Virus record (IMG/VR): IMGVR_UViG_3300044712_000322
Span: 1 to 30,433 of that record
Origin: a virus
DNA length: 30,433 nucleotides
Direction: 5' to 3' (one strand)
Made by a program: the position numbers and the translations under genes. Of this stretch, positions 19,794-30,433 are shown piece after piece. The notes beneath the pieces are model-generated. The model had not been told where the DNA came from and searched no databases. It saw only the letters and a program-made list of their open reading frames with translations. Each line of letters opens with the position of its first letter. Positions within the stretch are counted from its first letter, which is position 1.

Positions 19794-20189
19794 TCACCTT
19801 TTAAGATATTGAATAAGAATGTCTCTAGCCTGCCACCATGAATAACAAACTACATAGCCAAATCCTTGATTATTAGCAAAAATTCCGAATTCTTTTTGAT
19901 CTTCGCTTTCCTTTCCTTTCTTTTTACCATCGTCTTTTTTCATTTCAATAAACAGACCATGCATATTATGTCTTGCAACGGGCAAGAAAATATCAGATAC
20001 ACCTGATTTAACGCCTTCTGCCTTTGCCATTGAACCTCGAATTGCACCGCCTTTTTCTGCATTCTTGATTGCAAACATCCATTTAAGCTCTGGATGCATG
20101 CCCACAGATAGCGCAGCCCAGGCAAACAAGGCCATTTGCTCGGATCGTTCTGTGTGCGGAGCGGCAATTTGTTCAGGTGTTAGGATCAT
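19794..20189 (-). CDS. VRR-NUC domain nuclease
   Basis: A 131-residue protein matching phage VRR-NUC nucleases: TERSEQMALFAWAAL, then a core with GVKSGVSDIFLPV (Asp66), GLFIEMKK (Glu82, Lys84), and DQKEFGIFANNQGFGYVVCY. The Asp...Glu-x-Lys arrangement is the PD-(D/E)XK active site. Phage members are thought to act on branched DNA or as Holliday-junction nucleases. GGAAG lies upstream of the ATG, overlapping the end of the next small gene. Confidence 0.88.
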   Translation of the reverse strand: MILTPEQIAAPHTERSEQMALFAWAALSVGMHPELKWMFAIKNAEKGGAIRGSMAKAEGVKSGVSDIFLPVARHNMHGLFIEMKKDDGKKKGKESEDQKEFGIFANNQGFGYVVCYSWWQARDILIQYLKR

Positions 20190-20192
20190 ACG

Positions 20193-20348
20193 CTAATCTT
20201 CCAAATCTTTTTCAATTTTTTCAATACCTTTTACTGTATTTTGCAATACGTTTTCTCCATTTACTATGTTGCCTGGAAGTTTTACAACGTCCACAGCTAC
20301 TCTAGCAGGCATTGTTACGATATTAGTTAAAATATTTAACAGTCCCAT
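20193..20348 (-). CDS. Small amphipathic phage protein, 51 residues
   Basis: Reading from ATG at 20348 gives MGLLNILTNIVTMPARVAVD and so on, to GIEKIEKDLED. AAGGAA stands seven bases upstream. Hydrophobic residues spaced as an amphipathic helix and a KLPGN hinge recall small phage proteins of the 'hydrophobic start, Lys/Glu end' type, possibly membrane-associated. It is packed between the VRR-NUC gene and the pyrophosphohydrolase gene with no free space. The function is unknown. Confidence 0.72.
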   Translation of the reverse strand: MGLLNILTNIVTMPARVAVDVVKLPGNIVNGENVLQNTVKGIEKIEKDLED

Positions 20349-20349
20349 A

Positions 20350-20646
20350 TCACATTCCTTTCAAATGACTAATAACTCCATCACAATCCGCATTTCCCCA
20401 AATTCGATTTTTATTAATCTGCATCTTTTTATTGACTTCTTCCAGCAAATCGAAACCATCACGATAAGCAATACCAAAAAGAAGAATAGCCATATCTGCG
20501 CATTCTTCAATATGGTTTTCAAAATTCTTTGCAGAAAGCAACTCCGCAAGCTCACGCGCAAGATGATTTTTCATTGCTTCAACATTAGTTCTATCGGCAA
20601 ATGTTGCAATATTCCATTCACCGATTTCTTTCTGAATCGGATGCAT
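20350..20646 (-). CDS. dATP/dGTP pyrophosphohydrolase, MazG-like (DUF550)
   Basis: A 98-residue protein with an intact MazG-type metal site: Glu32-x-x-Glu35 (ELAELL) and Glu48-x-x-Asp51 (EECADMAILL), followed by GIAYRDGFDLLEEVNKKMQI and a KNRIWG...DGVISH ending. Enzymes of this type hydrolyse dATP and dGTP (or related purine dNTPs) to monophosphates and pyrophosphate, and in phages serve in nucleotide-pool control. GGAGATTAA precedes the ATG. Confidence 0.88.
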   Translation of the reverse strand: MHPIQKEIGEWNIATFADRTNVEAMKNHLARELAELLSAKNFENHIEECADMAILLFGIAYRDGFDLLEEVNKKMQINKNRIWGNADCDGVISHLKGM

Positions 20647-20660
20647 TTAATCTCCAGACA

Positions 20661-20834
20661 TTAGCTTTTCGGCTTATAGGATTCTCGCTTGATAGCTCTA
20701 ATAGCATGCGATGGCATTTTGGACGCCCCGCCTGCACTATGCTTCCAGTAACCAGAAAGCCCGTTTTTACGGGACCACCATCGCACAGGCCGTCCACAGT
20801 CCATGCATACATTGTTGCTAGGCTTGTTTTTCAT
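20661..20834 (-). CDS. Small cysteine-containing protein, 57 residues
   Basis: From ATG at 20834 the frame reads MKNKPSNNVCMDCGRPVRWW, then SRKNGLSGYWKH and a basic C-terminus ending in YKPKS. Cys10-x-x-Cys13 and a later His32 suggest half of a zinc knuckle. AAAGG precedes the start by five bases, and the stop is 14 bases before the next ATG. A different 64-residue frame over the same DNA (20618-20812) has neither a binding site nor this composition. The function is unknown. Confidence 0.7.
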   Translation of the reverse strand: MKNKPSNNVCMDCGRPVRWWSRKNGLSGYWKHSAGGASKMPSHAIRAIKRESYKPKS

Positions 20835-20889
20835 ATAGCACCTTTAAAGATTCGTTAATTTAGACAAAAGCAGAGCCAGCTAGCAAATA

Positions 20890-21120
20890 TTATTTCATTT
20901 CGTTTTTTCGTTTTTCGATTGCACGTTTAAGGCCATTAATCACCTTATCCGTCTTTTCGTTTTCACGCCTTACAGTATCACGCCACTGTCGCTCCGCTTC
21001 ATTCTTTGCGGCGATGTTTTGAACAATACCGGCAATTGGCAGCGCAAACATACACACAATGCCAAGTCCCGCAAAAAATCTTAGCACCTTTGCGCCTTTG
21101 GTTGGTTCATCATGATACAT
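20890..21120 (-). CDS. Small membrane protein with basic helical tail
   Basis: A 76-residue protein: a basic N-terminus, one transmembrane span (about residues 14-35, LRFFAGLGIVCMFALPIAGI), then a long charged helix (AERQWRDTVRRENEKTDKVI and onward). It starts after a very good site (GGAGGTAATTCT) and is directly driven by the promoter at 21140-21167. It is the first gene after this promoter. The function is unknown. Confidence 0.72.
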   Translation of the reverse strand: MYHDEPTKGAKVLRFFAGLGIVCMFALPIAGIVQNIAAKNEAERQWRDTVRRENEKTDKVINGLKRAIEKRKNEMK

Positions 21121-21139
21121 AGAATTACCTCCATGCCAA

Positions 21140-21167
21140 ATGATACAACACAGACTAACTCTGTCAA
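21140..21167 (-). promoter_or_regulatory. Early promoter, TTGACAGAGTT type (copy A)
   Basis: Minus strand: TTGACA at 21167-21162, 16-base spacer starting GAGTTAG, TATCAT at 21145-21140, then GGCATGGAGG and the ATG at 21120. The block is nearly repeated at 22904-22932. Confidence 0.75.
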
Positions 21168-21181
21168 GGCAAATTCAACAA

Positions 21182-21469
21182 TTATTTTTTATTCCATCCA
21201 TCAAATTTATGAAAATCAAATTTCGTGCCAGTTCTGACGCAATCTTCATAATACTTTCGAAAATTGATAGCGGCTTTTCGAGTTTGATTCTCAGTTACGT
21301 TTTTAGATACACGAAACTTCTTTACAGTAAATAGACCGTCAACAGCTACCAAAACACCGAAACAAACAATCGGATTTGGTTTAGCTAGTCTATTGTCAAG
21401 TTCAATAAACCTACTTACTCCATTGGGCAGGTTTGAACCTTTGTTAATTTGTGACGTTTCACGAATCAT
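21182..21469 (-). CDS. Unknown protein, weak AP2/integrase DNA-binding-like pattern
   Basis: The start is ATG at 21469 (95 residues): AGGTG lies just upstream, and the upstream frame is occupied by another small gene, which makes the longer reading from 21688 unlikely. The sequence (SNLPNGVSRFIELD, then NPIVCFGVLVAVDGLFTVKK and AAINFRKYYEDCVRTG) has the layout of small AP2-like domains: three strands and one helix with GVSR near the start. This is only a pattern match. It ends in KFDFHKFDGWNKK. Confidence 0.6.
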   Translation of the reverse strand: MIRETSQINKGSNLPNGVSRFIELDNRLAKPNPIVCFGVLVAVDGLFTVKKFRVSKNVTENQTRKAAINFRKYYEDCVRTGTKFDFHKFDGWNKK

Positions 21470-21476
21470 GTTACAC

Positions 21477-21623
21477 CTAAAGTGAAAAGTTAATATTTCT
21501 ATAATACCATCGTCTAAGCCTGTGTTGCGCTTTACTAAACCATTCTGGAGATTCGTGAGCCATGCGCCTACGATGCCAGTTAATTTTAAAATACTTTCTG
21601 TATATCTTTGGATTCTTTGCCAT
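21477..21623 (-). CDS. Small basic protein, 48 residues
   Basis: ATG at 21623 follows AGGTTGAA and overlaps the leader of the previous stop (TGA-A-ATG). The frame reads MAKNPKIYRKYFKINWHRRR then MAHESPEWFSKAQHRLRRWY and ends NINFSL. It is rich in Arg and aromatic residues, suggesting nucleic-acid binding. Its stop is seven bases before the next ATG. The function is unknown. Confidence 0.65.
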   Translation of the reverse strand: MAKNPKIYRKYFKINWHRRRMAHESPEWFSKAQHRLRRWYYRNINFSL

Positions 21624-21624
21624 T

Positions 21625-21843
21625 TCAACCTGCTTTCTGTTCTCTTGGTGGTGAACTGGTTAAATGCCAGTAGTGACAAAACTCGCACTTATATACATAC
21701 AATTGTTTACAGCGTTTATTCATTTCTTTATTCATGCATTCCAATGCGATTTTATAATGTTTGAACTTTCTTTTGTAATAACATGGAAACAATACTTCTT
21801 TTAACTTGCGCTTTTCATTTCGTTGTTTCTTTGCATTTTTCAT
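21625..21843 (-). CDS. Small lysine-rich zinc-finger-like protein
   Basis: A 72-residue protein: a very basic helical start (KNAKKQRNEKRKLKEVLFP), then YVYKCEFCHYWHLTSSPPRE, which holds Cys-x-x-Cys and His and matches the 'kCpfC..WHLT' ending of many small phage proteins. No strong binding site is present; it follows the previous stop by three bases and may be coupled to it. The function is unknown. Confidence 0.65.
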   Translation of the reverse strand: MKNAKKQRNEKRKLKEVLFPCYYKRKFKHYKIALECMNKEMNKRCKQLYVYKCEFCHYWHLTSSPPREQKAG

Positions 21844-21846
21844 AAA

Positions 21847-22053
21847 TTATCTAAATATTTCAATAACGATTATACCAACGGCGCAAATAATACAAACAAC
21901 AGTAGTTATTTTTTCTATCCTTCCATCCTTTTTAGTAAAAAGATTATCCATAAAGTCAAACTCCCTTGAAACAAAATAAAGAAGTAGACAAACACAAATA
22001 CAGAAGCCCCAAGTCAAAGCAGCAATGGCATAAACAATAAATTGTTCAATCAT
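21847..22053 (-). CDS. Small two-span membrane protein
   Basis: A 68-residue protein with two hydrophobic spans (FIVYAIAALTWGFCICVCLL and IEKITTVVCIICAVGIIVIE) joined by a charged loop (FDFMDNLFTKKDGR). The ATG overlaps the upstream TGA by the ATGA pattern. The function is unknown; phages often encode such proteins for membrane or exclusion effects. Confidence 0.68.
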   Translation of the reverse strand: MIEQFIVYAIAALTWGFCICVCLLLYFVSREFDFMDNLFTKKDGRIEKITTVVCIICAVGIIVIEIFR

Positions 22054-22205
22054 ACAAGACTTCTTTGATTTCGTTCAAATACGTTTTTCTCCAAATTCGT
22101 ATAAAATTCAACAAACTTTGAAGCTGTTATTATACCGGCTTTTAAAGACTTTGCCATATCAACAAACAAATCTAATTCTTCGTTGTTAAGATCTGTCCAT
22201 CTCAT
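22050..22205 (-). CDS. Small helical protein, 51 residues
   Basis: ATG at 22205, preceded by GGAG eight bases away. The frame starts MRWTDLNNEELDLFVDMAKS, continues LKAGIITASKFVEFYTNLEK and ends in NQRSLV. Amphipathic helices suggest a regulator-like or structural mini-protein, but there is no known motif. Both ends overlap neighbours by ATGA, which strongly supports translation. Confidence 0.65.
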   Translation of the reverse strand: MRWTDLNNEELDLFVDMAKSLKAGIITASKFVEFYTNLEKNVFERNQRSLV

Positions 22206-22318
22206 CGGTATGTCTCCATTCCCTTAGAAAAGCCGTATTCAAGAGCACTACATAGGCAGCCCAGCAAATAAGCGAGCCCAGCAAAGGGAATCAAGACAAT
22301 TTGCATTGCTGTATTCAT
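22202..22318 (-). CDS. Very small membrane peptide, 38 residues
   Basis: ATG at 22318 after GGAGAAAGTCAA. The peptide reads MNTAMQIVLIPFAGLAYLLG then CLCSALEYGFSKGMETYR: one transmembrane span followed by a short charged tail. Both ends overlap neighbours by four bases (ATGA). The function is unknown. Confidence 0.62.
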   Translation of the reverse strand: MNTAMQIVLIPFAGLAYLLGCLCSALEYGFSKGMETYR

Positions 22319-22461
22319 TTGACTTTCTCCGAAGAAGTTATGTAAATGAACTGTGTCAAGCCTTGATAAGCACCTGACATGAAATGGACGAATGTTACAT
22401 TGTTGATTTTATGAATCAAAACTAAATCGCCTTCAAATTCATTAATTGCGAGTGTTTCCAC
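22315..22461 (-). CDS. Small unknown protein with GTG start, 48 residues
   Basis: The start is GTG at 22461, because GGAGG stands seven bases before it. A longer frame from TTG at 22521 lacks such a site. The peptide begins METLAINEFEGDLVLIHKIN and ends ITSSEKVK. It shows alternating beta-like hydrophobics. It is the first gene after the promoter at 22675-22702 and follows a 200-base leader that contains several mini-ORFs. The function is unknown. Confidence 0.65.
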   Translation of the reverse strand: METLAINEFEGDLVLIHKINNVTFVHFMSGAYQGLTQFIYITSSEKVK

Positions 22462-22674
22462 TGTATAACCTCCAAAGAAAAGAAACAAGGCCGGACAAAT
22501 CGAAAATGTCGCTAGCAACAATAATCAATTCATCCGGCCTCGGAGCGTTAGCTCTATAGGCTGCGCATATATCCGCCTTTCAAAAGTTTTAAAGGAATTT
22601 CATTACGAATTTTCCTTTTTGTTCATTTTAGTTTATTGCTACTTCATAAAACACCCCCAGGAAACTATAAAATC
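22462..22674 (-). promoter_or_regulatory. Long leader with several mini-ORFs and a wide inverted repeat
   Basis: This leader between the promoter and the GTG gene holds very short frames behind possible binding sites: ATG AAG TAG at 22647-22639 after GGGGGTG, ATG CGC AGC CTA TAG following AAAGGCGG, and ATG AAT TGA following GAGG. An inverted repeat AGGCCGGA / TCCGGCCT (22488-22495, 22533-22540) spans part of it. This may be translational attenuation, or remnants of lost genes. Confidence 0.4.
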
Positions 22675-22702
22675 AATGTAAGCTAACCGGGTAACTTGTC
22701 AA
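22675..22702 (-). promoter_or_regulatory. Sigma70-like promoter
   Basis: Minus strand: TTGACA at 22702-22697, 16-base spacer, TACATT at 22680-22675. It starts just after the 22719 gene and reads into the leader at 22462-22674. Confidence 0.65.
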
Positions 22703-22718
22703 GAAAAAATTTATTCTT

Positions 22719-22883
22719 TTACAACTTTTCACATTTATTACAATTAGCTTTAGAAGCTTTATAAATTCCGCAGAATTCACAAGCATATTCATTATCACCT
22801 TTATTTTCAATTTCAAAATTGCACATACAAATAAATCCAAATCGCATGTTATCACAAAAATGCAATTCATTTTTATTATTCAT
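22719..22883 (-). CDS. Small zinc-ribbon protein, 54 residues
   Basis: The start is ATG at 22883, with GGAGGTAACACA directly before it; a frame from 22904 would place this site inside the coding sequence. Residues hold CDN, then CMC, a C-terminal CEFCG and CNKC, so two Cys pairs form a probable zinc ribbon. It is driven by promoter copy B. The function is unknown; a DNA- or protein-binding adaptor is likely. Confidence 0.72.
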   Translation of the reverse strand: MNNKNELHFCDNMRFGFICMCNFEIENKGDNEYACEFCGIYKASKANCNKCEKL

Positions 22884-22903
22884 TGTGTTACCTCCATGCC
22901 ACA

Positions 22904-22932
22904 AACATACATTCTCAGCCTAACTCTGTCAA
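22904..22932 (-). promoter_or_regulatory. Early promoter, TTGACAGAGTT type (copy B)
   Basis: Minus strand: TTGACA at 22932-22927, 17-base spacer starting GAGTTAGGCTG, TATGTT at 22909-22904, then GGCATGGAGGTAACACAATG. It overlaps the last bases of the 22929 gene. It is the closest relative of copy A at 21140-21167. Confidence 0.75.
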
Positions 22933-23171
22933 GTGATTTTCGTCACAGCTTTAAAAACTCTAATAGTGTTATCTATTTTCAATTGTAAACATTCAGCTTC
23001 AGCCCAACCCATAGCTTCGATTTTTGCATCCACAGAATTATCATATCTTCCAATTCCTGTTTCTACAATATCCTGCATCCAATCCATATCTTCATATTCT
23101 GCAATATGCAAAGCAGCATAGCCAGAACCAATTAAACCTATTGTTATAAAATGATTTCTTGTTTTACTCAA
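22929..23171 (-). CDS. Unknown phage protein with GIGRY motif
   Basis: The start chosen is TTG at 23171 (80 residues), five bases after GGAGG; an alternative is TTG at 23183, which lies on top of that site. The protein reads SKTRNHFITIGLIGSGYAAL, then MQDIVETGIGRYDNSVDAKIEA followed by MGWAEAECLQLK, similar to small phage proteins with a 'TG.GRY....EA...WA..E' pattern. The function is unknown. Confidence 0.6.
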   Translation of the reverse strand: MSKTRNHFITIGLIGSGYAALHIAEYEDMDWMQDIVETGIGRYDNSVDAKIEAMGWAEAECLQLKIDNTIRVFKAVTKIT

Positions 23172-23213
23172 TTCATCCTCCAATGTTACATAATGACTAT
23201 TATCGAAAGTTGA

Positions 23214-23378
23214 TTAGCAAATACCATACCAATGATGTTCAAAATACCAAGCCCATGCTAAACTTCGTATTCTTTTATCCCAAAGTTTTTTATTAATCAA
23301 GTCCATTAAAAATTCATTTGATAAAAACTCATAAGGTGTTTTTGTAAAGAAGTAACATCTATTTCTAACTCTAAACAT
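23214..23378 (-). CDS. Small basic aromatic-rich protein, 54 residues
   Basis: The start is ATG at 23378 with AAAGGTGGAAA upstream. The peptide reads MFRVRNRCYFFTKTPYEFLS and ends AWAWYFEHHWYGIC. It is basic, with many Trp and Tyr. No family is recognised. Confidence 0.55.
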   Translation of the reverse strand: MFRVRNRCYFFTKTPYEFLSNEFLMDLINKKLWDKRIRSLAWAWYFEHHWYGIC

Positions 23379-23459
23379 TTTCCACCTTTGTAAAAAGTAT
23401 TGCCTACATTGCACCGCAATTAAACCAAGATTGTGCCAATTGCCCGGTTCAATAATGCG

Positions 23460-24122
23460 CTAGGACTGCCAGGGAGCCTTGGGGAAGGGCAATGCAGGGT
23501 GTGAGGTAAGCAAAGGCGCTTCCTGGACGTTTGGCACGGCAGAGGATGGCGCAGGAAAGGCGCTGGGAGCAAGGTGCAAGCCGTTTTGATCAAGAGTAAC
23601 AATTTCAGAATCAACTTGAATAATACCGCCTTCTTGAGCCAGTGCGTCTTGCTGACGGACAAAGGCAATTACGTCAGGATCGCCACTATTCAATAAAGCA
23701 AGCCGCGCACCTTGACCACGCAAATTAATGTTCAACTGGCTAAGGTCCGGCTGCTTCAAATTTAAACTTTCATTTTTACCAATGCAGTTTTTACAAATAC
23801 CACCATTTCGTTGTGTAAGATTGCTATATGCAATTTCCTTTTCAATGTTGCATTTAACGCATACACACTTCCAATAACCCATGCTTTTCCGTTTTTCAGT
23901 AAATGAAATTACTTTCCAAGTTCCGAAAAGTTTTCCTGTCAAATCATTTTTATTATTATCACAAACACACTTAAAAATCATTGTTTCAAATGCGCTTACG
24001 CTAACTTCGTTGTATCTGCCACACTCGCAAATAACAATTACGAAATTAGGATCATTTCGCATTTCATTAAAGCCAATTGCCCACAGTTTGCCGTGTTTTT
24101 GGCCGATAATATCGCTTATCAT
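23460..24122 (-). CDS. Tandem Cys-rich (zinc-binding-like) protein with Pro-rich tail
   Basis: A 220-residue protein. Residues 1-55 and 56-115 are two copies of one domain: IIGQKHGKLWAIGF / LTGKLFGTWKVISF, then CEC / CVC-x-x-C, and closing CVC / CKNC pairs (Cys32, 34, 52, 54 and Cys86, 88, 91, 110, 113). The pattern 'G..fG.w.vi......W.C.C..C....v....L..G....C..C' is that of the zinc-binding modules found next to phage HNH and AP2 domains, here without any nuclease motif. Residues 120-220 are low-complexity, Pro- and Ala-rich and GC-rich (23461-23560). AAGGGAG precedes the start, and a good promoter lies at 24156-24183. The first copy has lost one Cys, so it may bind metal differently. The function is unknown. 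Confidence 0.68.
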   Translation of the reverse strand: MISDIIGQKHGKLWAIGFNEMRNDPNFVIVICECGRYNEVSVSAFETMIFKCVCDNNKNDLTGKLFGTWKVISFTEKRKSMGYWKCVCVKCNIEKEIAYSNLTQRNGGICKNCIGKNESLNLKQPDLSQLNINLRGQGARLALLNSGDPDVIAFVRQQDALAQEGGIIQVDSEIVTLDQNGLHLAPSAFPAPSSAVPNVQEAPLLTSHPALPFPKAPWQS

Positions 24123-24155
24123 GGTTCAATCTCCCTTGGCGGTATCGCCATAATG

Positions 24156-24183
24156 ATTATATGCCCTTTTGCCTGTTCGTCAA
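24156..24183 (-). promoter_or_regulatory. Strong sigma70-like promoter for the 23460 gene
   Basis: Minus strand: TTGACG at 24183-24178, 16-base spacer, perfect TATAAT at 24161-24156, about 34 bases before the ATG at 24122. Confidence 0.78.
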
Positions 24184-24189
24184 GGCCGG

Positions 24190-24470
24190 ATAAACTCATA
24201 TCCAAAATATTTATACTTACTTATCACTTATATATATTCATAATAATTAATAATAATATAATAATAATAAATAATAATAATATATATCAACAATATCAAT
24301 AGGTGTAACGTTCTAACACTTTTCCAATAAAAAATTTTGTGATATGATAATACGATATCAATATCAAGATAATTTATTTTTATCTATAAAGTGATAAAAT
24401 ATCAATATCAAACCTGAAAATTTTTCATTATTTTTGTTATACTTGTGTAAGCTGACTACTTGCAACACTT
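24190..24470. other. AT-rich non-coding region, candidate replication origin
   Basis: No gene fits here. It is very AT-rich, with a TAA-type simple repeat at 24241-24285, two exact copies of ATATCAATATCAA (24355-24367 and 24399-24411) and an imperfect third at 24284-24300. Iteron-like repeats beside an AT tract are common at phage origins, and the primase-helicase gene lies about 2 kb away. No classic DnaA box (TTATCCACA) was found in it. Confidence 0.45.
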
Positions 24471-24791
24471 AAACGTTATTTTGCCATTAGAAAATCATTA
24501 GAATGAATTATACCAAGTATAATTATTACATTATCTTTGATAAAAAGATATTTACGATGATATAGAAATGGAATAGCGCGATAAGCACATATAAAAAGTA
24601 GTGCTGAGTCGAGGGGAGTGTGAGCAGGGCAAGTGCGATCTGATATCAAAGATAAAAAACGAGATGGCCGTTGCATGCGGTGCTGTAAAGTGTGGGCACG
24701 GTGTAAGCCTAGAGCCGCTGTTTCATTGCGCTTGGCCTTAGACGCGACAAAGCCGCTAGTTAGGCGGCTTTGTGAAGGTGTGGAGGATGAA
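24471..24791. other. Non-coding stretch of unclear content
   Basis: A long frame crosses this stretch on the minus strand, but it has no binding site and an unnatural composition, so it is not called as a gene. Visible items: a palindrome TTATAC-CAA-GTATAA (24508-24522), a spaced inverted repeat TATCTTTGATA / TATCAAAGATA (24532-24542, 24644-24654), a GC-rich patch (about 24600-24780) with one TGCCCACA octamer, and a hairpin at its end. Confidence 0.4.
24747..24773 (-). terminator. Hairpin terminator after the 24792 gene
   Basis: A perfect 10-bp stem ACAAAGCCGC / GCGGCTTTGT with a seven-base loop lies 19 bases after the stop. The T-run is short (TTTG inside the stem), so strength may be moderate. 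Confidence 0.6.
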
Positions 24792-25172
24792 TTAGTATAA
24801 AAGTTCAATGGGTGTGAAAAGTTTTGCAAATTCTGAATTTTGAATTTGTTCTGCTGTTAACATTATCGGTAGTTCAATTTTATAAGTATTGTGATCAATC
24901 AATTGCTTAATAATTTTAATTGCTTCTTGTAATCCGATGTTTTCGCCACCTAAAAACTTTCGAAGTGTTTTAATAGCTTCAATTTTGTTTGATTCAATTA
25001 TAGGATTTGAATAAAGTTTGATTGCTTTGTAAGTTTTTTCTGTTGGCTGCTTTTCTTCGTGTCGCTTTATCAAATGATCAACAGTTTTCATTTCAAGTTC
25101 TACTTTTTCACGATACATCTTTAGCAATTCAAGATCAAAAGTAATCAGGGTTTCAAGCGATATGAAAACCAT
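24792..25172 (-). CDS. Unknown protein with a ribosomal L7/L12 C-terminal-like motif
   Basis: The start is ATG at 25172 (126 residues), seven bases after AGGAG; the longer reading from 25232 has a hydrophobic leader that belongs to the small gene at 25183. Residues about 76-106 (NKIEAIKTLRKFLG then GLQEAIKIIKQLID) follow the 'K...IK.vR...glGLkeAk..v' pattern of the L7/L12 C-terminal domain. The rest is helical and charged (LLKMYREKVELEMKTVDHLI). Similar motifs occur in unrelated small phage proteins. Its role is unknown; contact with translation or a mimic of L7/L12 can only be guessed. Confidence 0.62.
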   Translation of the reverse strand: MVFISLETLITFDLELLKMYREKVELEMKTVDHLIKRHEEKQPTEKTYKAIKLYSNPIIESNKIEAIKTLRKFLGGENIGLQEAIKIIKQLIDHNTYKIELPIMLTAEQIQNSEFAKLFTPIELLY

Positions 25173-25182
25173 TGTGTGACTC

Positions 25183-25281
25183 CTAGAAAAATAGAAAAAA
25201 AAGAACGATTGCGAAACCGCAACCGATGACAAGGGCGCGGATGAAGCTAACGTTTTCGAGGCAGGGAATGGAAGGATTCAT
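25183..25281 (-). CDS. Very small membrane peptide, 32 residues
   Basis: ATG at 25281 after GGAGGAAAAC. The peptide reads MNPSIPCLENVSFIRALVIG and ends CGFAIVLFFLFF: a single C-terminal transmembrane span with a short N-terminal tail. The stop (25183) is just before the AGGAG of the next gene. The function is unknown. Confidence 0.62.
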   Translation of the reverse strand: MNPSIPCLENVSFIRALVIGCGFAIVLFFLFF

Positions 25282-25358
25282 GTTTTCCTCCGGTTGGTGG
25301 TGGATTCGCGTAAAGCCGTTCCCGGTTATGGTTCTGTTGTTTAGAAATGATCGGACAC

Positions 25359-25586
25359 TTACTTAATTAGATTCATGACAGCTTCTTTAATTTCGTAATC
25401 AGACATTCCGTTAAGGCTTTCTGCTTCTTCATCATTAAGAACGGGGCCGGAAATGGAACCGACAAGAGTTTCCAGCATATCAGAACAAAACTGTTCAGGA
25501 GAAATCAAAGCGAAATCGGCGCGGCTGTAATTCATGCTCATCATGTCTGCCATCTTCGCCAGGGTTTCTTGTTTCTGATTGCTCAT
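25359..25586 (-). CDS. Small acidic helical protein, 75 residues
   Basis: The start is ATG at 25586 after GGAGAAACCC; the frame runs further upstream but crosses the promoter. The sequence includes QETLAKMADMMSMNYSRADF, SPEQFCSDMLETLVGSI and NDEEAESLNGMSDYEIKEAV. It is driven by promoter copy C. No family is recognised. Confidence 0.65.
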   Translation of the reverse strand: MSNQKQETLAKMADMMSMNYSRADFALISPEQFCSDMLETLVGSISGPVLNDEEAESLNGMSDYEIKEAVMNLIK

Positions 25587-25605
25587 GGGTTTCTCCGATG
25601 CAACA

Positions 25606-25634
25606 AGTATAGGTTCACCGCTCAACTCTGTCAA
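25606..25634 (-). promoter_or_regulatory. Early promoter, TTGACAGAGTT type (copy C)
   Basis: Minus strand: TTGACA at 25634-25629, 17-base spacer beginning GAGTTGAGCGG, TATACT at 25611-25606, then GTTGCATCGGAGAAACCC and the ATG at 25586. It has the best boxes of the three copies. Confidence 0.82.
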
Positions 25635-25677
25635 GTGATTTCGAAAAGAAAATTCAAATATTTTTTTTGAAGGCATG

Positions 25678-25710
25678 AAAAAGGGCCGGGATCAACGATC
25701 CACCGGCCCT
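25678..25710 (-). terminator. Rho-independent terminator (distal of a tandem pair)
   Basis: Arms AGGGCCGG / CCGGCCCT enclose an inner GATC/GATC stem and are followed on the minus strand by TTTTTCATG. It lies just upstream of promoter copy C and insulates it. Confidence 0.82.
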
Positions 25711-25775
25711 AGGGTGTGCAACCCCGCTCAAACACCCCAGGCAAGCATGGAGCCAGCGGCGGGGCTGCGCAAGAC

Positions 25776-25812
25776 AAAGAAAAACGGCCAGCAGTGGGAT
25801 TTGCTGGCCGTT
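25776..25812 (-). terminator. Rho-independent terminator (proximal, end of the candidate sRNA)
   Basis: A perfect 11-bp stem AACGGCCAGCA / TGCTGGCCGTT with an eight-base loop, followed on the minus strand by TTTTTCTTTG. Confidence 0.9.
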
Positions 25813-25860
25813 CCACCCATTGCCGCTACGCCGTCTCTCAAGCGGTCGTAGCACCTGAAA
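25780..25860 (-). ncRNA. Candidate small RNA, about 81 nt
   Basis: Downstream of the sigma70-like boxes at 25866-25893 the minus strand reads through hairpin 1 (GCTACG-A-CCG, nine-base loop, CGG-CGTAGC; 25825-25852), a short linker (GCAATGGGTGG), and the terminator hairpin 25783-25812 with its T-run. No ORF fits. A 3' UTR element of the 25905 gene is the alternative. It is not a tRNA: no T-arm consensus is present. Confidence 0.45.
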
Positions 25861-25865
25861 GTCCT

Positions 25866-25893
25866 AGAATACTATTTGCAATTAAGGTTTCAA
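25866..25893 (-). promoter_or_regulatory. Candidate promoter of the small RNA
   Basis: Minus strand: TTGAAA at 25893-25888, 16-base spacer, TATTCT at 25871-25866. It lies wholly between the stop at 25905 and the hairpins. Confidence 0.5.
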
Positions 25894-25904
25894 GTCATGC
25901 AAAG

Positions 25905-26180
25905 TTAATGCCAAGTAATCTGATTTTCCACATAATAAACATGACCACATTTACAATAAGTCCACCCTGAGTTTTCATCTTCATTATCACTCGTATAATT
26001 CCATATACCACAATTTCGACATTGAGAATGATTAGAAAAAACTTCGTGCATTAATTCATCAATATATTTCAATCTTTTTGAATTGTTTTTGGTTTTTTCA
26101 ACATAAGGTTTCATGCCATCGGAAAGCATGGGTTTGTAATAAATATGAAAATCCGATAAAAAGCTATGCTTTATTTTCAT
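25905..26180 (-). CDS. Zinc-ribbon protein downstream of the primase-helicase
   Basis: A 91-residue protein: a basic, helical first half (KPYVEKTKNNSKRLKYIDEL), then CRNCGIWNYTS and YCKCGHVYYVENQ, giving two Cys pairs of a zinc ribbon. The ATG follows the primase stop by one base, so they are likely translated together. A role with the replication protein is plausible but not shown. Confidence 0.72.
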   Translation of the reverse strand: MKIKHSFLSDFHIYYKPMLSDGMKPYVEKTKNNSKRLKYIDELMHEVFSNHSQCRNCGIWNYTSDNEDENSGWTYCKCGHVYYVENQITWH

Positions 26181-26181
26181 A

Positions 26182-28455
26182 TCAAGTCCGTTGTGTTACA
26201 GCAAAGCATTTTTGCTTATGTCCAAACTCGCGTTCAATTTGACCTATTGGAACTTCCTGTAATTCACCTTGATCAATCAAGCCTGCAATAGCCCGTTTCA
26301 ATGCAAAAGTAGCGCCCATCTTATCAGTTCTGAAACAAGAAATAGGCGCTAGTCTTTGATTTAAATATTTGTATGGAATAATAAACATTTCATGCATTTT
26401 TTTATCAAGCTTGTATTTTTCTGCAACACCTTTTGTTGTAATGTATTCTTGACAAATTCTAGATAATTCTTTTTGTTGTGTAAAATCAGTATTGTTAGTG
26501 CTTACTTCACCTTCTTCGAATTTTGAAATGATATTAAAGTTATCGTAATTAATAATGCCAATCGCCCATTCTGCATCCTGCCTTGTGATTACAGGAAAGA
26601 AAGGATTATTGCCCACAGCTACCAAAGCCGCTAATTTCATTGCTTTTACATGACTGCGTGTCCAAAGTTCATTTGATACGCCTATTGCATCCTGTTTATT
26701 AATTTCAACATTGCATTTATTTTTATTATATTCATCAAAAATTCTTGCTGCGTGTTCATCTAACTTAACTGTAATTACTGCTTTGTTTGAAATGAGCATT
26801 AAAGAGTTAGACGCAATACCTGAAATTTTTTGTATTAATTCAGGTGATGGTTTGATCATGTAATGATTGTTGTTTGGATCGCATCGCAAACCCAAGTATT
26901 CGAAGGTGGTAAATCGAGGTAATAGACCTTCTGAAATCAAATCTTCATCTAACAGCCGGTAATACTTTTCCGGCGTGCATTCCCCTAGAAATGAGAAGCA
27001 AGGCGCATTCAAGGTATGTGTATTTTTGTCTTTGTCTGAATAAACAATTCCGCCAAGCGTTTGCCCATTGCCTGATTTATTGTATAAATTCAAAAACATT
27101 CGTCGCAAGCCGGTCAAATTTGAATTAGCATTTTGACTTGTCAATTGTTTGAGCATCATTGCAAATTCGGTAAGCACTGACATAAAACATGGATTTTGAT
27201 CCAGATGTTTTACTAGACCTTGTGGTGATGCAAATTCAGCCGGACCAATAAAGCTTGTTACTGTGGGAACAGTCTTTTTTACTTCTGCAATAATTTTATC
27301 AATTCCCTTTGCCATTGCTTCTTTGCCGCGCCCTGTTTTTGCCAATAAAACAAAATAATTATTTAAACCGGTTCCGGAAACATTGTAACTTTTACCGCAC
27401 AGCGCAGACATTAGCGCAAGTGAGGCTACAAGGGAAATTTCCTTTACCGGATAGATTGATTGTGCATAAATAAATTCCGCAATCTCTCCCACAATTCCAG
27501 ATGGAAAGGAATACGGATTAGGCGGCTTTGGTCGTTCTTTCATAAGCTTCCCAGGCTTAGAAAGTTGAATCTCCATTTGTTCACGCAAGCCTGTTAAATC
27601 AATAGGCGGAAGCATGCGGTCAAATGATTTATTAATCATGTATGCTATATAGTCTTCTCTATTGGCTTTTTTGCGTTTGCCTAAAGCTGAATTTCTAAAA
27701 ATTCGCTTGATCTGATTTTTATTTTGTGTATAGAATGCAACAATGTTAATTAACGCAAAATCAGCTTCTGATTGTGATGAATAGTATTGAGTCCAGTTTC
27801 CTGTATAAAGATTTTTGAATTTTTCGCCGTTTGATGCATCGGCAGCTTTCATCAATACTTCATCATCTGTAAACTTTTGCTCTAGCTCACCTTCATAAAT
27901 TACATTTGTTTTATTTCCGCCCATTTCTTGCCAAAGCATTGATATTAAGTCTTGCTTTGGTGCAATTGGTGCGGAATTGAATACATCGCCAGTCATCGTC
28001 ATATAGCGAGCCGTAGAATAAATTTCTACTGCGTGCTTACGTCTTCCAGATGGGACTTGGCCTTTTACAATAATATGCAAGCCTTGACCTGAAGGCGATT
28101 TTTCACTATAACTTGAAAATGCATCGTGAATTTTTATTTGTCGTTCCATGATTTGCGCTGGGTTTTCATATTTCAATTTACCATCTTTATCAAACTCAAA
28201 TGGATTATCTAAATCAATAAATGTATATGGGTCTGCCTCGGTCAAAACAAAGCCGATACCGGAAAAGCCGCCGTTTAAATATGTATTGCAAGCTTCATTA
28301 AAGCTAGCCCATGTTTCAGGCTCGGTTACATCTGCCAAGCGGTTAGAATGTGGGCAATACGGAACCTTTGTAGGCTTGCCGTTTTGGGTTTCTTCATACT
28401 TCCAGACGCACCATTGTCTATACCGTGTTAATTCTTCCGGTATATTTTGGAACAT
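26182..28455 (-). CDS. Primase-polymerase (AEP, NrS-1 type) fused to DUF3987-like helicase
   Basis: A 757-residue replication protein. Residues 1-165 are an archaeo-eukaryotic-type primase-polymerase of the NrS-1 group: WCVWKYEETQNGKPTKVPYC, FSGIGFVLTEADPYTFIDLD with metal ligands Asp81 and Asp83, SPSGQGLHIIV with His127, and EIYSTARYMTMTG with Glu144. Residues about 230-280 form a helical primase C-terminal domain. Residues 310-757 resemble the DUF3987 helicase domain, with a Walker A-like LAKTGRGKEA at 371-380 (Glu where Ser or Thr is usual) and a Walker B candidate FMSVLTEF at about Glu430. This enzyme class can start DNA synthesis without a separate primase, laying primers and unwinding DNA at the fork. 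AAGGGTGG stands before the ATG. It is the first large gene leftward from the divergent promoter. Confidence 0.88.
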   Translation of the reverse strand: MFQNIPEELTRYRQWCVWKYEETQNGKPTKVPYCPHSNRLADVTEPETWASFNEACNTYLNGGFSGIGFVLTEADPYTFIDLDNPFEFDKDGKLKYENPAQIMERQIKIHDAFSSYSEKSPSGQGLHIIVKGQVPSGRRKHAVEIYSTARYMTMTGDVFNSAPIAPKQDLISMLWQEMGGNKTNVIYEGELEQKFTDDEVLMKAADASNGEKFKNLYTGNWTQYYSSQSEADFALINIVAFYTQNKNQIKRIFRNSALGKRKKANREDYIAYMINKSFDRMLPPIDLTGLREQMEIQLSKPGKLMKERPKPPNPYSFPSGIVGEIAEFIYAQSIYPVKEISLVASLALMSALCGKSYNVSGTGLNNYFVLLAKTGRGKEAMAKGIDKIIAEVKKTVPTVTSFIGPAEFASPQGLVKHLDQNPCFMSVLTEFAMMLKQLTSQNANSNLTGLRRMFLNLYNKSGNGQTLGGIVYSDKDKNTHTLNAPCFSFLGECTPEKYYRLLDEDLISEGLLPRFTTFEYLGLRCDPNNNHYMIKPSPELIQKISGIASNSLMLISNKAVITVKLDEHAARIFDEYNKNKCNVEINKQDAIGVSNELWTRSHVKAMKLAALVAVGNNPFFPVITRQDAEWAIGIINYDNFNIISKFEEGEVSTNNTDFTQQKELSRICQEYITTKGVAEKYKLDKKMHEMFIIPYKYLNQRLAPISCFRTDKMGATFALKRAIAGLIDQGELQEVPIGQIEREFGHKQKCFAVTQRT

Positions 28456-28545
28456 TAGCCACCCTTGAAATTGAAGCTATTGCATTAATTTTCCAATTTT
28501 ACACAATAAGTTACATTATTTAATTGTGTTTGATAATTAAATTCA

Positions 28546-28743
28546 TTATTTGACTTTGTTTTCTAGATAATTTTTTAGTGTTTCAATTCGATTAACAGAA
28601 GGATCTTCAATTTTATTTTGAGAAAGGCTTTTTAACCATCCTTCGGGGATGGTCGTTTCCATCGAAATGATACCCAAAGTCATCCATACCGGACGATTTC
28701 TTAATAGTTCGATAGTCTTATCCCTTAGATCGGTTGTAATCAT
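28546..28743 (-). CDS. Small helix-turn-helix DNA-binding protein
   Basis: A 65-residue protein: DLRDKTIELLRNRPVWMTLG, then ETTIPEGWLKSLSQNKIEDPSVNRIETLKNYL. This is the pattern of small phage HTH proteins in which the recognition helix is followed by 'WL..f..g.i..PSvnriE.Ly.yL'. AGAGG lies six bases before ATG. It is the first gene transcribed leftward from the palindromic promoter at 28804-28843, so autoregulation through that palindrome is a natural hypothesis. It is a repressor or activator candidate for early gene control. Confidence 0.75.
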   Translation of the reverse strand: MITTDLRDKTIELLRNRPVWMTLGIISMETTIPEGWLKSLSQNKIEDPSVNRIETLKNYLENKVK

Positions 28744-28804
28744 TCCAGCCTCTGTAATAGATGATGCATGATGTAACTTTGGAAATTTTTTCTGCCCAAA
28801 AGAA

Positions 28805-28833
28805 AATCTACCCTTGACACTCTAGCCTGTCAA
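28805..28833 (-). promoter_or_regulatory. Leftward promoter inside the palindrome
   Basis: Minus strand: TTGACA at 28833-28828, 17-base spacer, TAGATT at 28810-28805. It drives the HTH gene and the primase-helicase operon. Confidence 0.75.
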
Positions 28834-28842
28834 GGGTAGATT
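28814..28842 (+). promoter_or_regulatory. Rightward promoter inside the palindrome
   Basis: Plus strand: TTGACA at 28814-28819, 17-base spacer, TAGATT at 28837-28842. It drives the MazG-like, unknown and Sak4-like genes. Same boxes and spacing as the leftward promoter. Confidence 0.75.
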
Positions 28843-28891
28843 TGGTCCTGGCACGAAACACTTCTTAAACGGTCAATCTGGAGTCTATGAA

Positions 28892-29404
28892 ATGGATAAT
28901 CTAGAATACGTCAGACTTGTGGATCAGCACAAAAGCATCAAATATAATGGAGAGAATGTAAATATTGAACGTTTTATTAAATCAATTGAATTATTAATTA
29001 CAGATTTTAGATTTATTGATTATTACAAAACAAAAATGTTTTCAGAATCAAATAAAAAAGAATTTGCAAATGAATTTTCTTTTAGCAATTGTTCACAGCT
29101 ACCGTATCAATTTAAAAATTACGATGAAGGCGTGGAATTAATAAATTCTATTCTAAATATTGCAAGTGAAAGCCGATATCTTTTAGAAATTCTTTTGTTT
29201 ATTTTTAAGAATAAAAATATTGTTCCTATTTCTGATTTCAAGCGTTCTACTTCTGAAATTTTTCAACACATGGCAGTAATTTCTAAGTTTTGTGAAATTA
29301 GTTTTGAAGAAATGCAAATTGCAAATATAGAAAAATTGCGAAAAAACAATGATTGTTGCAAAAAATACAAAGTAAATGGAATTGAAATTGAGTTTATAAA
29401 ATGA
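28892..29404 (+). CDS. MazG-like protein with degenerate metal site
   Basis: A 170-residue protein, first gene of the rightward operon, with GGAG eight bases before ATG. The second half has the MazG/NTP-pyrophosphohydrolase layout: ASESRYLLEILLFIF, then a helix STSEIFQHMAVISKFCEISF and EEMQIANIEKLRKN, which matches the usual 'isleev..aNieKL..R'. However, the ExxD pair is ExxQ (Glu122, Gln125), and the first ExxE is incomplete (Glu99 with Arg95/Tyr96 before it). Catalysis may be lost or changed. A regulatory or structural role, or a different substrate, is possible. The N-terminal 75 residues are of unknown type. Confidence 0.6.
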   Translation: MDNLEYVRLVDQHKSIKYNGENVNIERFIKSIELLITDFRFIDYYKTKMFSESNKKEFANEFSFSNCSQLPYQFKNYDEGVELINSILNIASESRYLLEILLFIFKNKNIVPISDFKRSTSEIFQHMAVISKFCEISFEEMQIANIEKLRKNNDCCKKYKVNGIEIEFIK

Positions 29405-29811
29405 ATCGTGATCAGTTAATTCTAACATGGTTGAATAAGAAAAATCAAGTTGAAATTTTAAAAGAAGAAGAAAATAAACTTAGAATTGAAATTGTAAAAA
29501 ATATCATTGATACTTCAAGACTCGAAAAATTTACAAGAACGTTTGATTTAGGCAAAGGTTACAAGCTGCGTGCAACAAATATTGTTAGTTACAAGTTAGA
29601 CGAAACAGAACGAGTTATTGCCTGTATTGATGCAATTTCTAATGCAGGTCGAAAAGATATTTCATCTTCTTTATTCAAGTGGAAAGCGGAATTATCCGAA
29701 ACAATTTACAAACAGCTACCGTTAGAAATCAAAGCAATTGTTGATGAAATCTTGACTATTAAACCTGGAATACCACAACTTGAATTTGTTTCACCTGAGG
29801 ATAAAACATAA
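29401..29811 (+). CDS. Unknown phage recombination-operon protein (DUF7173-like)
   Basis: A 136-residue protein: a coiled-coil start (NKKNQVEILKEEENKLRIEI), a beta segment with FDLGKGYKLRATNIVSYKLD, and a C-terminal motif LPLEIKAIVDEILTIKPGIPQLEF, as in small proteins encoded next to Sak4-type ATPases and ssDNA-binding genes. It overlaps the previous gene by four bases (ATGA) and the next by one (TAATG). The function is unknown. Confidence 0.6.
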   Translation: MNRDQLILTWLNKKNQVEILKEEENKLRIEIVKNIIDTSRLEKFTRTFDLGKGYKLRATNIVSYKLDETERVIACIDAISNAGRKDISSSLFKWKAELSETIYKQLPLEIKAIVDEILTIKPGIPQLEFVSPEDKT

Positions 29812-30433
29812 TGCAAATGTCGGATTTAAAACCTGTTTCCGCCTTTGCTCGTAATTTTGGCGTCAAATCGTTAGTCTATGGTGGTCCTGGTTCCGGTAAA
29901 ACTCCAATCGTAAGCACAGCACCAAACCCTGTAATGTGTATTGTTGAACCTGGGGTTTTGTCTTTACGAAAAGAAGGTATTCCGGCTTTCGAAGCTTATA
30001 CAAGTTCAAAAATTGATGAATTTTATAAATGGATTGTTGGATCTAAGGAAGCTGCTAAATTTGATACTGTTGCTTGGGATAGTGTATCCCAATGGGCAGA
30101 AATTATTTTGATTGAAGAATTAAGCAGATGCAAGGATGGTAGAATGGCTTATGGAAACATGAGCCGCAGAATTATGGAATACATGAATGGTCTTTATTTC
30201 TTACCAAATAAGCATGTTTATTTAATTGCTAAAATGACTTCAGTGGATGAAATTGGAGTCATTCGAAAAAAGCCTTATTTTCCAGGGCAAGATTTAAATG
30301 TTAAAATTCCTCATTTGTTTGACGAAATCCTTTACGCTGGTAAATTTCCTATTCCTGGCGCTGGTATTAATCCAGCTTTCCGCACTCGTGAAGCTTTTGA
30401 TTCCATGGCACGCGATAGAAGCGGAACATTAGA
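29811..30433 (+). CDS. Sak4-like RecA-fold ATPase (single-strand annealing/recombination), partial
   Basis: The frame starts at ATG 29811 (or the in-frame ATG at 29817) and runs off the window after 207 codons. Residues 21-35 carry a Walker A, YGGPGSGKTPI, with Lys30 and Thr31; the Walker B-like FDTVAWDSVSQW follows at about residues 84-95. Later segments (MAYGNMSRRIMEYMNGLYF, HVYLIAKMTSVDEIG) match phage AAA_24/Sak4 ATPases that pair with ssDNA-binding proteins and promote recombination during replication. The stop lies outside the window. Confidence 0.85.
   Translation, partial: MQMSDLKPVSAFARNFGVKSLVYGGPGSGKTPIVSTAPNPVMCIVEPGVLSLRKEGIPAFEAYTSSKIDEFYKWIVGSKEAAKFDTVAWDSVSQWAEIILIEELSRCKDGRMAYGNMSRRIMEYMNGLYFLPNKHVYLIAKMTSVDEIGVIRKKPYFPGQDLNVKIPHLFDEILYAGKFPIPGAGINPAFRTREAFDSMARDRSGTL

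Follow-up and report, generated by a model that had tools for sequence, protein, structure and literature searches.

A perfect palindrome between two divergent phage operons and its probable reading as a pair of overlapping mirror-image promoters

A perfect palindrome sits between two oppositely transcribed phage operons in the IMG/VR virus record IMGVR_UViG_3300044712_000322 (positions 1 to 30,433; this whole stretch of 30,433 nucleotides is referred to as the window). Judging from the sequence, we consider it fairly likely that two mirror-image divergent sigma70 promoters are fused in this palindrome, that they are mutually exclusive and that they have slid together in this clade. In related phages the control region has its two promoters side by side; the palindrome is probably an overlapping form of it, and probably not an entirely new type of switch. 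Readings of the palindrome as an operator, a terminator or a replication origin are all ranked below the promoter reading.

The palindrome, its promoter-like sites and the flanking operons

A previous reading of the window, made from the sequence only, had claimed exactly complementary 16-bp arms at 28804-28843 and, on each strand, TTGACA, 17 bases and TAGATT. Both claims were borne out by the letters of the palindrome, AAATCTACCCTTGACA ctctagcc TGTCAAGGGTAGATTT, which has no mismatch between its arms. The interleaving described there was also found, with each -35 box lying between the -10 and the -35 of the opposite promoter. The elements are as follows.

28804-28843, no strand: perfect inverted repeat, with arms 28804-28819 and 28828-28843 of 16 bp each and an 8-nt centre
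28814-28842, plus strand: rightward sigma70-like promoter TTGACA-17-TAGATT, with -35 at 28814-28819, -10 at 28837-28842 and predicted start at about 28849
28805-28833, minus strand: leftward sigma70-like promoter TTGACA-17-TAGATT, with -35 at 28833-28828, -10 at 28810-28805 and predicted start at about 28798

When the window was dinucleotide-shuffled 25 times, the longest arm in each shuffle was 9-12 bp, compared to the 16 bp observed. Of 20,000 composition-matched random 16+8+16 palindromes, only 48 contained a promoter matching 10 of 12 bases in both directions, and the arm is single-copy in the window in a search allowing 2 mismatches. These results together show that the palindrome is real and not a chance match. 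Each promoter-like site matches 10 of the 12 bases of the sigma70 consensus, which may not be the consensus of the host; both -35 boxes are consensus and TAGATT matches the -10 consensus at 4 of 6 positions. The 17-bp spacing of the hexamers on both strands falls within 16-18 bp, and the two sites are directed into the flanking operons. The starts at 28849 (plus) and 28798 (minus) were predicted from spacing only, and they are only about 51 bp apart. As a separate observation, the part of the window from 20000 to 30433 contains 53 sigma70-like sites compared to 38 in shuffles (sd 5.9), and several minus-strand sites with TTGACA are among them, e.g. 25634-25606 and 21167-21140.

The genes on the two sides of the palindrome are listed below.

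28546-28743, minus strand: XRE-like helix-turn-helix (HTH) protein of 65 aa, first gene of the leftward operon
26182-28455, minus strand: NrS-1-like primase-polymerase/helicase, second gene of the leftward operon (PF22763, 3.8e-10; phrog_3022 DNA primase, 1.6e-219)
28892-29404, plus strand: MazG-like protein, first rightward gene (phrog_229, 0.0029)
29401-29811, plus strand: DUF7173 protein, rightward operon (PF23791, 1e-27)
29811-30431, plus strand: Sak4-like ssDNA-annealing ATPase, rightward operon, continuing past the end of the window (phrog_124, 1.5e-37; PF13479, 1.6e-14)

The HTH gene is where the earlier reading had placed it, and the replication and recombination flanks that it had proposed correspond to the NrS-1-like primase on the left and the Sak4 recombination gene on the right. 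The MazG-like protein is 24% identical to the MazG protein (PF03819) at the equivalent place in the related phage L012. Compared to this Pfam-positive homologue, it has ESRY for ETGE and STSE for ETGD; the protein seems to have lost catalytic acidic residues and is possibly an inactive MazG. Megablast of the window against INPHARED phages gave no match, Rfam gave nothing above noise, and no tRNA was found.

Under the promoter reading, the fused promoters would drive two operons, HTH-primase to the left and MazG-like/DUF7173/Sak4 to the right. From the geometry, a polymerase bound in one direction would exclude the opposite direction; given the generally known size of the polymerase footprint and a distance of about 51 bp between the predicted starts, two polymerases should not be able to bind at the same time. 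The direction would then be set by competition, since the promoters appear to be nearly equal and each has a consensus -35 box. In E. coli bidirectional promoters, a better -35 on one side leads to polymerase competition and less of the divergent transcript (PMC12825309). One may go further and propose that the exact symmetry was itself selected, as an orientation coin-toss promoter at which one polymerase-binding event picks either the replication or the recombination operon. We regard this extension as unlikely; if it were true, the base ratio of the two operons would be set without any regulator.

The same gap in related phages

The nearest relative (IMGVR 3300034088_000006, here L008), with an HTH protein 86% identical to that of the window, has AATCTACCCTTGAC-N10-GTCAAGGGTAGATT at the equivalent place (L008:4503-4540). 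An exact palindrome search in which the inner arm end was fixed as A/T missed this relative and a relaxed pattern recovered it; the relaxed pattern had no other match in the viral contigs. The record 3300034081_000008 yields an identical match and was counted with 3300034088_000006 as one phage, and the palindrome was found in only two independent phages including that of the window. The 170-aa MazG-like rightward gene is missing in L008. In the alignment of the window to this relative, all of the 28 inner arm bases are identical and the centre is largely changed, while the 60 bp from the HTH start codon to the palindrome have 14 mismatches. The leftward promoter of the relative is unchanged (TTGACA-17-TAGATT) and its rightward promoter is TTGACT-17-TAGATT.

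The palindrome could also be primarily an operator, where a dimeric or tetrameric regulator, either the HTH protein or a host factor, would bind two CTACCCTTGAC half-sites and silence both promoters at once. The perfectly symmetric arms are conserved beyond the hexamers, including CCC/GGG, the spacing of the half-sites is identical in the nearest relative, and the HTH gene adjoins the palindrome. However, the four promoter hexamers account for 22 of the 28 inner arm bases that are conserved. At the flank identity of about 77%, chance would leave the remaining six, CCC/GGG, intact in about one case in five. Promoter function alone therefore suffices for the conservation of the arms. A site of 38 bp with a 10-bp centre would also be long for a single XRE dimer. 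We consider the operator explanation rather unlikely, and return to it below with the HTH protein.

HTH homologues are present in many other viral contigs, and about 20 more distant phages were compared. No relatives were found when genome_contigs was scanned with the HTH protein, nor in a viral scan with DUF7173. Upstream of the HTH gene, the highest-scoring leftward and rightward sigma70-like promoters in the gap of the relatives usually make up a divergent pair. The -35 boxes are back-to-back and 10-15 bp apart in 14 of 22 gaps, compared to a mean of 0.57 and a maximum of 2 in shuffles, where the 22 gaps include near-duplicate relatives and are not 22 independent events. The summed promoter score of the family gaps has a mean of 18.9, compared to 12.2 in shuffles (maximum 13.5). 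Predicted starts are about 84 bp apart in most relatives. Overlapping variants were found in the clade of the window (gap -20) and in L043 and L046 (gap -10), and in four phages (L026, L030, L041 and L044) the top-scoring pair is outside both layouts. The earlier claim of two divergent promoters thus gains support from the pair in the gap of most relatives and from the mirror-overlapping form in the closest one. The symmetry itself, which had been expected to be conserved in related phages, was retained in the nearest relative and is lacking in most distant ones, where the promoters are back-to-back.

Counted from the HTH start codon, the -35 and -10 of the rightward promoter are at -76 and -99 in the window, which is about the family position. 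The leftward -35 is at -90, about 20 bp further upstream than is usual in the family. An inverted duplication, for example, may have created the HTH promoter anew over the rightward one. The family series from back-to-back to partly and then fully overlapping promoters suggests that a divergent control region of a phage can drift in geometry, and this drift leaves both operons and the small HTH gene in place.

The comparison to relatives also bears on whether the palindrome might be an intrinsic terminator or an attenuator hairpin acting on leftward transcripts. On the minus strand the palindrome would form a strong RNA hairpin (-28.1 kcal/mol, z -4.5) followed by TTTTCTTTT; a hairpin with TTTTCTTTT is also found in L024 (-24.3 kcal/mol, z -2.1), and the T-rich stretch is conserved. 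Most relatives, however, have no such hairpin here and yet have the promoter pair. The stem is A/T-rich and, the gap being divergent, there is no leftward gene upstream to terminate, which makes this explanation very unlikely.

The HTH protein, its candidate operator and the adjacent primase

The predicted model of the 65-aa HTH protein is XRE-like with four helices (mean pLDDT 86), and the family profile has distant matches to XRE/DdrO regulators. Foldseek with this model returned SinR, the AcrIIA15 HTH and C.Esp1396I, with probabilities near 1 and weak E-values. A PHROG transcriptional repressor was matched by 15 of the 23 members of the HTH family. The gene adjoining the promoters thereby encodes an XRE-like HTH protein, as in a switch of the XRE/Cro type. 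The following element in the gap is a candidate for its binding site.

28781-28792, no strand: A/T-rich near-palindrome GGAAATTTTTTC (GGAAAATTTTTC in the nearest relative), candidate HTH operator resembling the AAAATTTT-type element

Similar A/T palindromic cores of the AAAATTTT type occur in 9 of 20 family gaps, compared to 0.7 in shuffles, and are often positioned between the divergent -35 boxes. In the window and the nearest relative, the core lies outside the palindrome, just past the predicted leftward start. In EM motif discovery for an HTH operator only a low-information A-tract/T-tract motif emerged, and since that search collapsed the candidate is drawn from simple enrichment.

The palindrome had been proposed as the natural ligand of the HTH protein, and this proposal found no support, as homologues elsewhere occur without the palindrome sequence and their gaps are enriched for the A/T core instead. 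Moreover, L025 and L026, both of which are without the palindrome, share the N-terminal portion (IPEGWLK) of the predicted recognition helix. The location of the A/T core and the shared helix argue against the proposal, although not conclusively; the homologues without the palindrome and the shared helix weigh in the same way on the operator explanation given above. The element at 28781-28792 is, from its sequence, the better operator candidate. Combined with the promoter reading, HTH protein bound at 28781-28792 would probably bias the direction by hindering its own operon.

Since the second leftward gene encodes an NrS-1-like primase, we also considered the palindrome as a replication-origin hairpin serving this enzyme. 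The primase gene is close by and the cumulative GC skew has its minimum near the palindrome, but the skew turn coincides with the switch in transcription direction. Published sites of the NrS-1 primase are TTTGGTTA or GTGG/GTGA (PMC8718748), and neither is within the palindrome, which is also missing from most relatives. We find an origin hairpin highly improbable.

An observation of another kind concerns the octamer TGCCCACA (TGTGGGCA), the top-ranked 8-mer of the window, with 16 sites on both strands compared to 0.6 expected from a first-order Markov model (e.g. 1753+, 8149+, 13609+, 15252- and 28349-). In 12 of 12 related phage records, GCCCACA clearly exceeds its reversed control. In the window and the five relatives tested, the spacing of the octamer on the same strand is more even than random (CV 0.15-0.54 compared to about 0.9), with a mean of about 2.4-2.9 kb on the denser strand. 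The octamer includes GTGG, at which the NrS-1 primase primes efficiently (PMC8718748), and it might mark priming sites. Many relatives have a copy, TTGCCCACAT, in the 5' leader of the HTH gene (e.g. L039:2957, L025:1038 and L041:2965), which is missing in the window and its closest relative. The octamer may be of more interest than the palindrome.

Comparison to known divergent promoters

In the OR region of lambda, PR and PRM are back-to-back divergent promoters with Cro and CI as regulators. The window is similar in that a small HTH regulator gene adjoins divergent early promoters. Most of its relatives come closer still to PR/PRM, as their -35 boxes are separated by 10-15 bp that contain a palindromic element, and their predicted starts are about 84 bp apart. 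Unlike those of lambda, the promoters of the window overlap completely as exact mirror copies, with predicted starts about 51 bp apart, and the operator is only a candidate. The tetA/tetR region of Tn10 has overlapping divergent promoters of which the operators and the regulator are known. It resembles the window in that overlapping divergent promoters are beside a regulator gene, and differs in that the symmetric sequence of the window is the promoters themselves, the regulator site being a candidate.

The E. coli bidirectional promoters of Warman et al. are also symmetric DNA to which polymerase binds either way, one binding excluding the other. They share one -10, and their starts are most often 18 bp apart, also 10 and 23 (PMC12825309). 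In the window, by contrast, the -10 boxes at 28805-28810 and 28837-28842 are separate, and two full sets of -35 and -10 are interleaved with nothing shared and predicted starts about 51 bp apart. In the tested E. coli promoters competition appeared only once one direction was strengthened (PMC12825309). The palindrome, in which the promoters interleave fully and the two consensus -35 boxes are identical, would be a clean natural test case for competition between polymerase orientations.
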